A program made the position numbers and the translations under genes. A model generated the notes under the pieces. The model worked only from the letters and a program-made list of their open reading frames with translations, had not been told where the DNA came from and searched no databases. Of a stretch of 64,000 nucleotides of DNA, positions 4,787-49,273 are shown piece after piece. The stretch spans positions 310,001-374,000 of the forward strand of contig CAILKE010000004.1 in the NCBI GenBank assembly GCA_903834765.1, read 5' to 3'. Origin of the DNA: an uncultured Bacteroidota bacterium. Its GTDB lineage: Bacteria > Bacteroidota > Bacteroidia > B-17B0 > Aurantibacillaceae. Positions within the stretch are counted from its first letter, which is position 1; each line of letters starts with the position of its first letter.

Positions 4787-5752
4787 TTATTTTTTATCAG
4801 TTTCTTTTTTCTTAAAGTATTTTCTTAAAAGTATATTGTGCTTTAGGGCTTCCATATTTACTTTAAATCCTTCTGCACCGCCATCGATGTTTTTCATAGC
4901 ACTTTTTAAATCCCTTACAAAGGTTGTATCCATTACTAACATGCCTAAAGTTCCCTCTCCTTTATTTATTTTACCAGTTAAATTTCCTAAATCGCCAGTA
5001 ACGATCGCTAATTTATCTCCAGCAATATTTAATTTTACGATAGTATGTTCAAATTTCCCCGAAAGCGTAGTGTCCATTAATAAAGCTCCAACCAACCCTT
5101 TTCCAGATTTCATCTGACCCGAAATATCTTCAAAATCGCCAGTAACAATTGCCATTCTATTACCGGCCAACTTAATACTGACGATAGCTTGTTTGACGTT
5201 GTCTGCTACTACAGTGTCTTGCAATATACTCCATAACGTATTCCGGCTATTTAATTTTTTAGCCATTGTTTTTAGGTCAGTTGTAATATCTTTAATATTT
5301 TCGTTAGTTGCATTGAGTGTACGTAACATCTCATCCGTTTCAATCGCTTTAACGGTTTTGATTACATCCCCATCTACTACATGCGCTAAATCCCCATCTT
5401 TTACAGAATTAATATTTACTAATTTATTTCCCATTAAACCATCAGTTCCTATAGTGGCTAATGAATTTCTTTTTATGTAATTTTTTGCTTTTTCTTCAAT
5501 AAGCATCACCACATTAATAGATGAATCTGTTGCAATTTCAATGCTTTCCACGGTTCCAACATTAATGCCCGCATAGCGTACATTATGACCAACCATTAAG
5601 CCATTGACATTATAAAAAGGCGCACTAATTTTAAAAGTAGAACCAAATAAACTTCTTTTTGCTCCTATCATATAAAGCACCCAAATTAGAAAGACTATTC
5701 CTGCTATGACAAAGGCACCTAAACGTAAATTTTTTGATATTTCTGTTTTCAT
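4787..5752 (-). CDS. mlaD: MlaD-family (MCE domain) substrate-binding protein
   Basis: 321 aa. There is one N-terminal membrane helix (about residues 11-30), then an MCE domain (about 38-115) with the family segment YAGINVGTVESI, then a long helical, repeat-like tail (residues ~135-300) in which a segment of the type KLAGNRMAIVTGDFEDISGQ recurs about three times. MCE proteins form rings in the periplasm that carry phospholipids between the membranes for the Mla ABC importer. It is the third gene of mlaE-mlaF-mlaD but is separated from mlaF by 146 bp containing hairpin element copy D. mlaB and mlaC are not seen nearby, which I believe is common in this phylum. The gene symbol rests on domain and context. 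Confidence 0.85.
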   Translation of the reverse strand: MKTEISKNLRLGAFVIAGIVFLIWVLYMIGAKRSLFGSTFKISAPFYNVNGLMVGHNVRYAGINVGTVESIEIATDSSINVVMLIEEKAKNYIKRNSLATIGTDGLMGNKLVNINSVKDGDLAHVVDGDVIKTVKAIETDEMLRTLNATNENIKDITTDLKTMAKKLNSRNTLWSILQDTVVADNVKQAIVSIKLAGNRMAIVTGDFEDISGQMKSGKGLVGALLMDTTLSGKFEHTIVKLNIAGDKLAIVTGDLGNLTGKINKGEGTLGMLVMDTTFVRDLKSAMKNIDGGAEGFKVNMEALKHNILLRKYFKKKETDKK

Positions 5753-5773
5753 GTTTAAATATTTAATGTTTTT

Positions 5774-5848
5774 GTATTGGTCACATGGAATATGCCTATC
5801 TTCATTTATGTGCGTTTAAGCAAACCATTTGATAGTAGCTATTTCATA
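5774..5848 (-). repeat. Short hairpin element, copy D (in front of mlaD)
   Basis: Read on the minus strand it starts ATGAAATAGC (ATG at 5847-5845) and ends TATTCCATGTGACC, the same borders as copies at 9480, 36304 and 36393. AUAGC (5842-5838) can pair with GC(A)UAU (5795-5790) with one bulge, and CTATC (5835-5831) pairs with GATAG (5800-5796). The loop sequence is unlike the other copies. It ends about 20 bp before the mlaD start, in the gene's orientation. See findings. Confidence 0.65.
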
Positions 5849-5898
5849 GTTTAATAATATAAAATTTTATTTTCGGAGCTGTTGTATTAATTTAAAAT

Positions 5899-6672
5899 TT
5901 ATTCAAAAAATTGACTGATTCTGCTATCTTTTGATTTTTGTAATTCTTCATAAGTTCCTTCTGCATAATTCTTACCATCTATTAACATGATAACCCGATT
6001 GGCGGCAATCTTCACGCAATTCATATCATGTGAAATAATTAGAGAAGAGGTATTGTATTTTTTTTGCACGTCTATCATTAAATTACTGATTTCCCTTCCT
6101 GTTATAGGATCTAGCCCTGTTGTTGGCTCATCATATAATATAATGTTGGGTTTTAAAATCAATGTACGCGCTATGCTAATGCGCTTTCTCATACCACCGG
6201 ATAATTCCGAAGGCATCATATCTATAGCGTGTTTTAGTCCGACATTATCAAGTGCTTCTATCACTAACTGATCCACCTTTTGTTTATCTTTTTCTACCCA
6301 ATGTCTGCGAAGTGGGAACTCTAAATTTTCTCTAACGGTCATCGAATCATAAAGAGCATTGCTTTGAAATAAAAAGCCAATTTTTATTCTCATGTCATCT
6401 AATTCATCTTGATTCAATTCAGGAATACTTTTATCAAAGACCTTAAGGTTTCCTGAATCAGGAGTCATCAATCCAATAATACATTTTATTAAAACAGATT
6501 TCCCAGAGCCTGATTTTCCTAATACAGCAACGCTTTCTCCTTCAGACAGCGTAAGGTCAAAATTCTTCAGCACATGATTATCGCCAAAGGATTTACAAAG
6601 ACTTTTTATTTCAATAACCTGTTTCTTATTGACAATATTATTGATGGTATGTTGATGTGCTTCTTGTAACAT
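5899..6672 (-). CDS. mlaF: MlaF-like ABC transporter ATPase
   Basis: 257 aa, a single ABC cassette. Walker A GKSGSGKS (52-59), a Q-loop (FLFQSNAL), signature LSGGMRKR and Walker B with DEPTTGLDP are all present, as is the switch His in LIISHD. The MlaF-type FQSNALYDSMTV segment and the pairing with mlaE (one base between the genes) identify it as the energy-supplying subunit of the Mla lipid-asymmetry system at the inner membrane. The N-terminal ~15 residues before the cassette are poorly conserved, so a slightly later start is possible. Confidence 0.9.
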   Translation of the reverse strand: MLQEAHQHTINNIVNKKQVIEIKSLCKSFGDNHVLKNFDLTLSEGESVAVLGKSGSGKSVLIKCIIGLMTPDSGNLKVFDKSIPELNQDELDDMRIKIGFLFQSNALYDSMTVRENLEFPLRRHWVEKDKQKVDQLVIEALDNVGLKHAIDMMPSELSGGMRKRISIARTLILKPNIILYDEPTTGLDPITGREISNLMIDVQKKYNTSSLIISHDMNCVKIAANRVIMLIDGKNYAEGTYEELQKSKDSRISQFFE

Positions 6673-6673
6673 G

Positions 6674-7444
6674 TTATGTAATCCCTAATACATCTGCAAT
6701 TTGAACGGCTACTAAATCAATGATAAATACTAATAAAGATGAAACAACTACAGCTGAATTAGCAGAGCGCCCTACGCCTTCGGTACCTTTCTTTGAATAA
6801 TAACCTTTAAAGCAACCAATAATGCCTATATCTAATCCGAAAAAAAATGTTTTGATAATTGCAGGAACTAAATCAGAATAATCATTTGTTTCAAAAACTT
6901 GAGTCCAATATAAGTCCCAGGTCACAACACCTCTAATATTACAGCCTAAATAACCACCATACAATGAAATGGCATCTGCTAAAATCGCTAATAAAGGAAT
7001 CATTAAAATACATGCTAACACTCTAGTAACGACTAAATATTTAAAGGGATTTGTTCCTGATACTTCCATTGCATCAATTTGTTCGGTAACACGCATAGAG
7101 CCTAATTCGGCGCCAATGCCAGATCCAATTTTACCAGCGCATATCAATGCTGTAATAACTGGTGCAATTTCTCTTATCAAGGATATAGATACCATTTTAG
7201 GTAACCATGATTCAGCACCAAATTCAGTTAAAGTGGGTCGAGATTGTATGGTAATAACCAAGCCCATAATAAAGGCAGTTAGCCCAACAAGTGGTAATGA
7301 TTTATATCCTATAAAAAAGCATTGATTAAAAAATTCAGCAAATTCATAACGCGGTTTAAATACCTCTTTGAAAAACTTCACTGTGAAGCGAAAAATCTCA
7401 CCAGCTTCTATAAAAAAATGTTTCCAAGAGACATCCATTTCCAT
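6674..7444 (-). CDS. mlaE: MlaE-family permease
   Basis: 256 aa with about five to six hydrophobic helices and the MlaE family core: a REIAPVITAL segment followed by GKIGSGIGAELGSMRVTEQIDA, which forms the coupling region to MlaF. It is the membrane subunit of the Mla phospholipid transporter. It is the first gene of the operon, one base before mlaF. A second in-frame Met at codon 3 is an equally good start. No TAnnTTTG box was found in the 100 bp upstream. Confidence 0.9.
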   Translation of the reverse strand: MEMDVSWKHFFIEAGEIFRFTVKFFKEVFKPRYEFAEFFNQCFFIGYKSLPLVGLTAFIMGLVITIQSRPTLTEFGAESWLPKMVSISLIREIAPVITALICAGKIGSGIGAELGSMRVTEQIDAMEVSGTNPFKYLVVTRVLACILMIPLLAILADAISLYGGYLGCNIRGVVTWDLYWTQVFETNDYSDLVPAIIKTFFFGLDIGIIGCFKGYYSKKGTEGVGRSANSAVVVSSLLVFIIDLVAVQIADVLGIT

Positions 7445-9479: not shown

Positions 9480-9551
9480 ATGAAATAGCCTTGTGTCGAA
9501 TATCGCTGCACGAATTAAGAAACAAGGCTATTCCATGTGACAAATAAAAAA
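9480..9551 (+). repeat. Short hairpin element, copy A (5' leader of TlpA-like gene)
   Basis: Begins ATGAAATAGCC and ends GGCTATTCCATGTGACAAATA. ATAGCCTTGT (9485-9494) and ACAAGGCTAT (9522-9531) form a perfect 10-bp stem. The pairing continues outward as ATGAA/TTCCAT with one A-C mismatch. The loop is 27 nt. It ends 12 bp before the ATG of the next gene. Confidence 0.75.
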
Positions 9552-9562
9552 AACTTCTACAA

Positions 9563-36300: not shown

Positions 36301-36385
36301 CAAATGAAATAGCTATGTGCTGAATTGTAAAAATGCGAAAGAATATTACATAGCGTATTCCGTATAACAACTTAAAATAAATAAA
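36301..36385 (+). repeat. Short hairpin element, copy B
   Basis: Starts ATGAAATAGC (ATG at 36304) and ends TATTCCGTATAAC. ATA-GCTATGT (36309-36318) pairs with ACATAGC-G-TAT (36348-36358) with one bulged G. The stem sequence differs from copy A but pairing is kept. It lies just upstream of copy C in the same orientation. Confidence 0.65.
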
Positions 36386-36390
36386 ATAAT

Positions 36391-36482
36391 ATATGAAATA
36401 GCCATGTTTGCCGAAACACAAACACATCCCGATAGCTATCGGGAGAAGATAAACTGGCTATACCATATGGTAAATAAAAAAC
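36391..36482 (+). repeat. Short hairpin element, copy C, with a 30-bp palindromic insertion
   Basis: Starts ATGAAATAGCC (ATG at 36393) and ends GGCTATACCATATGGTAAATA. ATAGCCATGTTTG (36398-36410) would pair perfectly with CAAACA (36419-36424) joined to TGGCTAT (36455-36461). The 30 bp between these two pieces (36425-36454) contain the 16-bp palindrome CCCGATAGCTATCGGG (36428-36443). The element ends about 15 bp before the lipoprotein start at 36497. Confidence 0.72.
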
Positions 36483-36496
36483 AATAATTTAGACAT

Positions 36497-37018
36497 ATGA
36501 AAAAATTAGCTTTAGTAATCTTAACTGTTGCGTCATTTTATAGTTGCGATCGTATTAATCAAAAAATTGCCATTAAACATAATGATGCTGTTATAGAAGC
36601 AAGCGATAAAGTTGTGTTTGCTTTTGATAAATTAAATAATTCTTTGGCAACGTTCAACCCTGACAGTATTGACCTAGCTTTAGCAGCTTACAATTTGCAA
36701 ATAAATAATTCTATACTAGAACTTAATCAAGCAGTTTCAATCAATGATACTTCATTAAAAGTAGGAACACGTGAAATGCTTTATGTTTTTAAATCGGTTG
36801 GAAGTAATGAGTTTAAACAAATAAGAACCATTTATCAAATTCCTGATTCTTTATATACCGAAAAAGAAGAGAAAGAAGTAACTGATATTGCTTCGGCTAT
36901 TGACGAAAAAATAGAAGCAGCTCAATTAAAGCAACAAAATATTCAAAAAGCGTTTGCTAAAAGATTCAACTTTGAATTGATGTTTAATAAAGATTCGCTG
37001 AAGAATAAAGCGCATTAA
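36497..37018 (+). CDS. Hypothetical lipoprotein
   Basis: 173 aa. The signal peptide has a lipobox at residues 14-17 (FYSC, Cys17). The mature protein is almost entirely alpha-helical by composition, with long polar helices and no recognisable enzyme motif. I do not recognise a family with confidence; small helical lipoproteins of this kind are common in Bacteroidota. It is preceded by two tandem copies of the hairpin element (B and C), which is the most notable thing about it. Its 3' end is 30 bp from the convergent hemW gene, with no obvious terminator between. Confidence 0.7.
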   Translation: MKKLALVILTVASFYSCDRINQKIAIKHNDAVIEASDKVVFAFDKLNNSLATFNPDSIDLALAAYNLQINNSILELNQAVSINDTSLKVGTREMLYVFKSVGSNEFKQIRTIYQIPDSLYTEKEEKEVTDIASAIDEKIEAAQLKQQNIQKAFAKRFNFELMFNKDSLKNKAH

Positions 37019-46111: not shown

Positions 46112-46419
46112 TTAAAATTTAAGGCACTTTGATGTTTTTAGTAGACTTAAGCTATATGCGCCATAGCATGCGTTGGTAAGGGTGCGGTAGGCGTGAACGA
46201 ACGGTGTGAACTGCAATTTTTTCGGTGGTATTGCGAAGAGATTTGTGCGAGAAAAGAATTGGAGTTGGTGTTCGTTCTTGTCACGCCAAGGCGTGATTCT
46301 TTCTTTTGGTCAAGCAAAAGAAAATAAAAAAATAAAATCCAGTGTTTTTATTAAAGAGTCAAATTAAATTTTAAACTCAAACTTAAAATTGTAAATTAGC
46401 TCTCTTAAAAAAATACATT
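46112..46419. other. 308-bp intergenic region containing repeat copy 1
   Basis: The 193-bp repeat at 46166-46358 occupies most of it. The remainder is AT-rich with no gene seen on either strand. Confidence 0.7.
46166..46358 (+). repeat. 193-bp dispersed repeat, copy 1
   Basis: Aligns to 49082-49273 in the same orientation with about 22 differences and one indel by hand (roughly 88% identity). It contains the palindrome CACGCCAAGGCGTG (46282-46295) and an inverted repeat TTTCTTTTG/CAAAAGAAA around GTCAAG near 46300-46323. GC content is clearly above the flanks. It carries no transposase and no conserved ORF on either strand. Confidence 0.8.
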
Positions 46420-48302: not shown

Positions 48303-49051
48303 GTAATAGAATTGCTAAACGCATAGCCCTTCTCTTTTATAGCAGGAATAAGCTTTTCAAGCAATTGAGGCATAAACTCTAAGCGATCGTGTAACAAAAT
48401 AATTGCGCCGGGTTTTAATTGTGATAAAACGCGTTGTTTTATTTTTTCTATATCATTGGTAGAAGTATCATAGCTTCTGATATTCCAACCAACAGATTGC
48501 AACTTTAATTTTTTTATAGCCTTCGCAATATTAGGATTGGTAACGCCATACGGCGGTCTAAATAATTGAGGACTTGCTTGATAAGCATTAATTAATTGCT
48601 GACAATTAGCTATATCATTCGTTACTTTTTTCGTGCTCCATACATCAAACCAAAACGCATGAGAGTAACTGTGATTTGCCAATTGATGACCATCATCTAC
48701 TATTTGTTTTAAAATAATTTCGTTACCTACTATGTTTTTTCCGATGACACAAAACAATGCCTTCACATCATGTTTTTTCAAAACTTCTAAAACCTTTGCC
48801 GTATGTGGGTTATGCGGACCATCATCAAAGGTTAATAGTACTTTTTTTTCAGTTGTAGCTAAGGAGTTGATGGATGTTAAATGGAAATTGAATTGGATAA
48901 AATAAGCGCCAATAGATTGAATTAGAAGGAATATAAAAAGTAATCCCGACAGATACCAATAACTCAAATGATGGCTGTCTTTAAAAATAAAAAAGGCAAT
49001 GACGCCAATGAAAAAAACAACTGTTGTGGGTATAAATTGGTTCTTTAACAT
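48299..49051 (-). CDS. Membrane-anchored polysaccharide deacetylase (NodB family)
   Basis: 250 aa. Two hydrophobic segments (about 8-24 and 31-53) anchor the protein. The NodB domain has motif 1 TFDDGP (74-79, with catalytic and metal Asp), motif 2 HSYSH (127-131), motif 3 RPPYG and motif 5 LLHD. All key ligands are present, so it should deacetylate peptidoglycan or another N-acetylated glycan in the envelope. Unlike the two DUF7033-type deacetylases at 25-28 kb, this is a canonical family member. The 193-bp repeat copy 2 lies between it and the ketosynthase operon. Confidence 0.9.
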   Translation of the reverse strand: MLKNQFIPTTVVFFIGVIAFFIFKDSHHLSYWYLSGLLFIFLLIQSIGAYFIQFNFHLTSINSLATTEKKVLLTFDDGPHNPHTAKVLEVLKKHDVKALFCVIGKNIVGNEIILKQIVDDGHQLANHSYSHAFWFDVWSTKKVTNDIANCQQLINAYQASPQLFRPPYGVTNPNIAKAIKKLKLQSVGWNIRSYDTSTNDIEKIKQRVLSQLKPGAIILLHDRLEFMPQLLEKLIPAIKEKGYAFSNSIT

Positions 49052-49081
49052 TTTCAGTGAAATTGAGTTAAATAAACTAAC

Positions 49082-49273
49082 GCATACGTTAGTAATGGTG
49101 CGGTAGGCGTGGACGAACGGAGCGAACTACAATTTTTTCGGTGGCATTGCGAAGGGCTCTTTGCGAGAAAAGAATTGGAGTTGGCGTTTGTCCTTGTCAC
49201 GCCAAGGCGTGATTGTTTCTTTTGGTCAAGCAAAAGAAAATAAAAAATAAATTCCAATGTCTTTGTTGAAGAG
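49082..49273 (+). repeat. 193-bp dispersed repeat, copy 2
   Basis: Matches copy 1 at 46166-46358 in the same orientation. Contains CACGCCAAGGCGTG (49198-49211) and the TTTCTTTTG/CAAAAGAAA inverted repeat. At its left edge an extra hairpin ACTAACG/CGTTAGT (49076-49093) is present that copy 1 lacks in intact form. It fills the gap between the 3' end of the ketosynthase operon and the deacetylase start. Confidence 0.8.

Follow-up and report, generated by a model that had tools for sequence, protein, structure and literature searches.

The 146 bp that separate mlaF from mlaD in this uncultured member of the Bacteroidota contain what we take, with a probability of roughly 0.8, to be an old, resident copy of a mobile hairpin element of this phylum, small and non-coding, that inserted at the ATGAA start of mlaD (copy D; Table 1). 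The window, by which we mean the whole 64,000-nucleotide stretch of DNA that was analysed, also carries the copies A, B and C of the same element, and further copies are dispersed over the genome and over other Bacteroidota.

Table 1. Coordinates of the mla genes and of the element copies in the window.
Feature	Position	Strand	Remark
mlaD (MCE protein; Pfam MlaD PF02470)	4787-5752	-	starts ATGAAA at the right end of the element
Copy D, right-hand ATGAA = mlaD start	5748-5752	-	
Copy D, AACATG, stem III partner	5750-5755	-	includes the mlaD start codon
Copy D, 95 bp	5753-5847	-	left-end ATGAAATAG at 5847; last base directly precedes the mlaD start codon
Copy D, CATGTG, arm of alternative stem III	5782-5787	-	5/6 pairs
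Copy D, internal core TATTCCAT, stem I 3' arm	5785-5792	-	A.C mismatch
Copy D, left end ATGAAATA, stem I 5' arm	5840-5847	-	
Non-element remainder of the mlaF-mlaD spacer, 51 bp	5848-5898	-	presumably the older mlaD leader
mlaF (Pfam ABC_tran PF00005)	5899-6672	-	
mlaE (Pfam MlaE PF02405)	6674-7444	-	
Copy A	9480-9562	+	right end abuts the ATGAAA start (9563) of a thioredoxin-like gene
Copy B, tandem with copy C	36304-36392	+	
Copy C, nested CCCGATAGCTATCGGG palindrome	36393-36496	+	directly followed by a gene that starts ATGAAA at 36497

The element in the mlaF-mlaD spacer

The original prediction, made from the sequence of the window, placed a hairpin element in a long gap within the mla operon. 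The lengths of both gaps were confirmed (146 bp between mlaF and mlaD, as against 1 bp between mlaE and mlaF), and the hairpin element inside the operon is real, with sister copies present in the same genome. When the gap was compared with its own genome by blastn, further places were matched at E = 3e-9 and 1e-7. By folding energy alone the hairpin of the gap is not significant (z = -0.45 on the - strand and -0.36 on the + strand); it stands above chance because it is repeated in the genome, not because of its folding energy.

Alignment of the copies gives a common layout, in which ATGAAATA(G/T/C) is followed by a hairpin loop that varies between copies, TATTCCATxTGACAA (or a close variant), ~20 nt of A-rich tail, ACAy and then ATGAA; the element is about 76-110 bp long and non-coding. 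The left ATGAAATA pairs with TATTCCAT to form stem I, which has an A.C mismatch inside and, in 33 of 81 distinct copies (from the first 80 of at least 113 public stretches), one bulged base. The final ATGAA is usually a gene start and, within tandem arrays, the left end of the next copy. The palindrome nested in copy C (36428-36443 of the window) is also present in the loop of many element copies of this genome, and Sphingobacterium copies possess another palindrome (CCGCCAGCTGGCGG-like) nested at a comparable place in the loop, making these repeats inside repeats. An upstream AUG-AAA-UAG mini-ORF was considered as a conserved feature and rejected: among the public matches listed, 28 of 124 copies have T or C as the last base of the third codon and one has A, and T and C at this base usually accompany a matching partner base (first 81 distinct copies).

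Copy D shares 69% identity with its nearest sister, keeps five of the six pairs of the alternative stem III described below and all seven foot pairs of stem I, and is classed as old. The earlier suggestion that it may be a decayed copy is supported. Relatives that share the long gap without the element were not encountered: in the 16 related MlaD loci with an identifiable mlaF stop the two genes lie 0-22 bp apart, and a covariance model search found the element in none of the 17 loci of the set (the additional one, L103, is a partial match without an identifiable mlaF stop). Because the MlaD proteins of these relatives are at most 57% identical, the exact empty mlaD site can only be inferred; the 51-bp spacer next to copy D is also missing there. 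Probably a single insertion took place long ago at the ATGAA start of mlaD and gave this gene the leader of the element.

It had also been proposed that the element could set the relative amount of the MCE protein, through mRNA processing or control of translation. TAnnTTTG, the -7 promoter motif of the Bacteroidota, is found on neither strand of the mlaF-mlaD gap, and a new mlaD promoter is therefore not evident. A dedicated regulator of MlaD is not supported, since copy D is one insertion of a dispersed family that precedes unrelated genes. Any change in MlaD output would be a by-product, the leader having been altered and the start codon being able to pair weakly with CATGTG.

Distribution of the family and placement of its copies

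A covariance model built from seven seeds, copy D included (seeds match by construction), finds 49 places in this genome at E <= 1, of which 43 fall below 1e-3, and rescanning of the loci gives 50 distinct copies. Four copies lie at contig ends (C64:18, C67:10, C61:66 and C21:108425), which suggests that assembly was interrupted at the repeats and that there may be more copies than were counted. A plain search for repeats in the window failed to detect the family at 25 nt; at 16 nt just the B/C pair was visible among the 20 largest families. Two direct repeats of 205 nt that are 84% identical were also noted in the window (46127-46331 and 49043-49247).

Among genomes selected from genus to class level, 20 of 41, representing 4 of 22 genera, have matches; the relatives G011 and G015 hold 48 and 15 copies, respectively. 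In an even sample of the phylum at least 22 of 247 genomes match, this genome included, a figure that is a lower bound with 16 candidates scored per genome. At least 113 stretches from named genomes contain matches, with 124 copies in the 113 listed, and tandem arrays are frequent, five copies standing in a row in one relative (L060). All of the listed stretches are titled Bacteroidota except L154, a contig titled Candidatus Atribacteria, which is possibly a misbinned Bacteroidota contig. One exact-pattern query against viral contigs gave 0 matches, and one multi-copy query gave no match in plasmids and phages. Judged from these matches, the family is patchily spread over the Bacteroidota. No paper describing such an element was found in a literature search of open-access papers; there is reportedly published work on MITEs of Porphyromonas gingivalis and, separately, a published REP survey. 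Rfam 15 gave 0 matches in the window and none at gathering score in eight loci with copies.

Ten of the 50 copies in this genome are directly followed by another copy. Among the remaining 40, 31 lie directly against an ORF that is 60 aa or longer or that runs off the stretch. The nine others are C22 (ORF start away from the junction), C4:224622 (no ATG), C67 (contig end), C43:16713 (a diverged copy comes next) and five whose ORFs have 4-51 aa. The 124 public copies in the 113 listed stretches comprise two without a right-hand ATG, 14 that are followed by another copy and 108 others; among these matches, a long ORF starts at 90 of the 108 (a count that takes in ORFs running off the locus), and 18 do not directly abut one. 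Read from their sequences, the genes downstream of the copies look unrelated in function. As a background, 11 of the 52 non-coding ATGAA sites in the window are gene starts and 41 are not, as determined with simple gene calls and with the window's own copies included.

One may ask whether the start codon itself is sought out. That the element inserts at any ATGAA, with selection leaving mostly the insertions at start codons, is a serious possibility to which we give slightly less than even odds. Insertions inside genes would be harmful, and the 18 listed public copies that do not directly abut a long ORF are in line with such indiscriminate insertion. Against it, non-coding sites that are not starts outnumber starts by about 4 to 1 in the window, yet most copies sit at starts. 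Insertion at any ATGAA is a variant of our best explanation for copy D, and the odds of the two are not exclusive.

The base at position -3 of the right ends is C in 119 of 122 public copies among the matches listed, and the base at -3 in the left flanks is A in 30 of 60 non-tandem copies (first 80 of at least 113 stretches), as would be expected if the left side were the old native leader. Copy D is an exception, with A at -3. In Flavobacterium johnsoniae, according to passages of PMC6847099, an A at -3 favours initiation, the change from A to C costing ~15% in a reporter, and adenines at -14 to -11 favour initiation as well. A-rich sequence at those positions is supplied by the tail of the element.

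Filled and empty sites can be set side by side in Sphingobacterium. The ABC gene of S. tabacisoli is empty, ...AATTGAAAATCGAACAGAT being directly followed by ATGAATAATCC, and no copy is found at this locus by the model; in S. faecale that flank of the ABC gene continues with ATGAAATACTC... and, later, has ...TACAT joined to ATGAATAATCC (L264 against L263: flank and ATGAAT as against the same flank, tandem copies and ATGAAT). The insert consists of two tandem copies, the second of which is clear by the model; the first is diverged, interrupted by a palindrome and recognised by eye, with no model match at E <= 0.1. On this comparison, the pair shows an insertion. Upstream of tgt, four of the seven Sphingobacterium loci have a copy by the model, that of S. 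nematocida being weak (E = 0.047), and the loci of S. olei, S. faecale and S. pedocola are without one; ...TTGATTTAATAGTAGT stands before ATGAAC in S. olei, as against ...GTGATTTAGATAGAT before ATGAAATATTG in S. nematocida. The tgt leader of S. faecale is shorter, and loss is therefore possible there. In the tgt leader of S. pedocola (L262, upstream of 1500) a long unrelated extra stretch is found where other species carry elements.

For psd, the element is present in S. pedocola and absent from five species of the genus. This gene is not a clean case: S. olei has an apparent element tail without the hairpin, the product of a probable deletion. An element directly precedes psd both in S. pedocola (L131 2652-2742) and in the genome studied here (L011 1501-1595), and the two element sequences differ; the copies in the two genera would represent either independent insertions on one gene or a hotspot.

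Pairing of the internal core with both ends

The core CCATxTG has two possible pairing partners, the left ATG and the right CAyATG, and pairing with the latter forms stem III. Among the public matches listed, x and y form a Watson-Crick pair in 95 of 106 distinct elements and a G.U pair in four more, the first 81 elements having given 74 and three, as compared with 46.7 on average and at most 60 in 2000 shuffles, and all four pair types occur; this set was chosen by a pattern that fixes much of the element, though neither x nor y, and covariation counts are inflated by relatedness, related copies not being independent. In an alignment of 59 rows (A4), 98.6% of the stem III cells pair and 20 cells change on both sides, all of them at x/y; one of the six pairs of the stem thus varies on both sides, and three never vary. 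Forced folding of nine copies gave an equal or lower energy for stem III in five and for stem I in four.

Stem III is complete in 22 of the 24 recent copies of this genome, which have a near-identical sister, as against 8 of the 23 old, diverged ones. Recent copies have not kept stem I better: none of the 24 has all seven of its foot pairs, as against 5 of the 23 old ones; three of the 50 copies are unscored in these counts, and near-identical sisters are not independent. That stem III is complete mainly in recent copies suggests that it serves mobility; it would be needed for movement of the element and not for control of the gene at which a copy resides.

The same pairing could be given a purely regulatory meaning, the family then being a cis-regulatory RNA leader in which CCAUxUG pairs alternately with the upstream AUGAAAUA and with the real start codon, turning translation off or on. 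Such a leader would account for the sense orientation directly before start codons, for the inclusion of the start codon in stem III, for the energies of the nine folded copies given above and for the presence of a copy before psd in two genera. We nevertheless regard it as distinctly improbable: the downstream genes look unrelated in function, several orthologues are without the element, 15 of the 23 old copies have an incomplete stem III, and Rfam gave no match at gathering score in the window or in the eight loci searched. A side effect of the element on translation is possible.

We favour a mobile element that would move as a folded single strand and would be handled in trans by a recombinase. 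Its core TATTCCATxTG would pair in turn with the left-end ATGAAATA and with the right-end CAyATGAA, and would so set both ends and the target. Each insertion would supply the gene with a new start codon and an A-rich initiation region of the Bacteroidota type, and it would thereby be tolerable. We tentatively propose, as one possible form of this explanation, a start-codon-homing miniature element driven by a recombinase, in which ends and target alike are selected, by base pairing, through one internal stretch with complementarity to ATG(A)AATA and CAyATG; each jump would land on a translation start and rebuild it with the element's own initiation region, and the same pairing could mask the new start codon in the mRNA.

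Neither an autonomous copy nor a mobilising enzyme was found. Orphan right ends, considered as the trace of a gene-carrying version, were rejected: with CCATATGACAAN{1,5}AAAAA as the sole search pattern, 15 of 15 places in this genome are known copies, and in G011 all but one place of the same pattern lie in known copies, the exception (C1:55922) being a full copy too.

Relation to known mobile elements

The element resembles IS200/IS605 (TnpA Y1, single-strand transposition) in its hairpin, which here contains a mismatch, in its unequal ends, in its precise insertion at a short specific sequence and in an internal sequence that pairs with both end sites. The insertion site is a short fixed sequence, ATGAA being present at both junctions, and the empty site is matched exactly in the Sphingobacterium ABC pair (L264 against L263). 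These properties would be expected if the element were of the REP/RAYT or IS200/IS605 type and a Y1 HUH transposase moved it, and they recall the guide and cleavage-site logic described in parts of PMC6006769, which also report a Y1 subclass of the Bacteroidetes with atypical secondary structures at its flanks.

Such an origin is nonetheless rather unlikely in view of the distribution of the enzyme. No Y1_Tnp match at E <= 1 is found in G011 and G015, with their many copies, nor in G041, and G044 and G232 have weak matches only, below the cut-off. The element is present at 0 of 29 Y1 loci of relatives and at 2 of 32 in a second, partly overlapping set; at one of these (L325) two copies lie in the spacer from 114 bp past the gene and at the other (L319) one copy lies ~1 kb away, which we read as coincidence. 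The single Y1_Tnp (RAYT-like) gene of this genome (L009 1200-2100; G000:C53:35955) is located among ACCTGACAGGT palindromes, which form a separate repeat family. RAYT was rejected as the mobiliser on account of these palindromes adjoining the genome's own Y1 gene and of the two surveys without a consistent link. No Y1 gene was found in or linked to the element, whose copies are too short to hold one; a diverged Y1 enzyme may act from elsewhere. A guide tetranucleotide 5' of the hairpin foot is also absent, the pairing core of the element being on the 3' arm. In contrast to IS200/IS605, the element uses the same core for its two ends and has a start codon as its target.

With REP/RAYT systems (TnpA-REP) the element shares small dispersed palindromic repeats in tens of copies, single or in tandem. 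It differs from REPs in its conserved A-rich 3' tail, in its placement at start codons and in being recognisable across the phylum, whereas REPs are not conserved between species according to parts of PMC6006769. The 5' GT[AG]G foot of REPs, whose absence further argues against a Y1 origin, is missing from the consensus, which begins ATGAAATA (as required by the selecting pattern), and from the variants found by the model.

Bacterial MITEs, Correia and RUP among them, are short, non-coding and presumably moved in trans. The element is likewise short, non-coding and presumably moved in trans, and the ATGAA at both of its junctions, which looks like a 5-bp duplication, may be either a duplicated target or a part of the element; its ends, ATGAAATAGCC and TACATATGAA in the alignment, lack the terminal inverted repeats of MITEs, and its junction, unlike theirs, is a start codon. 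The attC sites of integrons are imperfect hairpins with a bulged base, a variable loop and an R box GTTRRRY. The imperfect hairpin of the element, its bulged base and its variable loop are similar, and no GTTRRRY box is present in the element consensus (alignment A4).

If the proposed explanation is true, landing on a start codon while keeping the gene readable would be an unusual way for a selfish repeat to spare its host, and the leaders and initiation regions of genes would have been rewritten in many Bacteroidota. The same gene with and without the element would offer natural experiments on translation initiation in this phylum, and the family would provide a lead towards a start-site-specific insertion enzyme. 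It also serves as a warning that leader hairpins of this type need not be gene-specific regulators.
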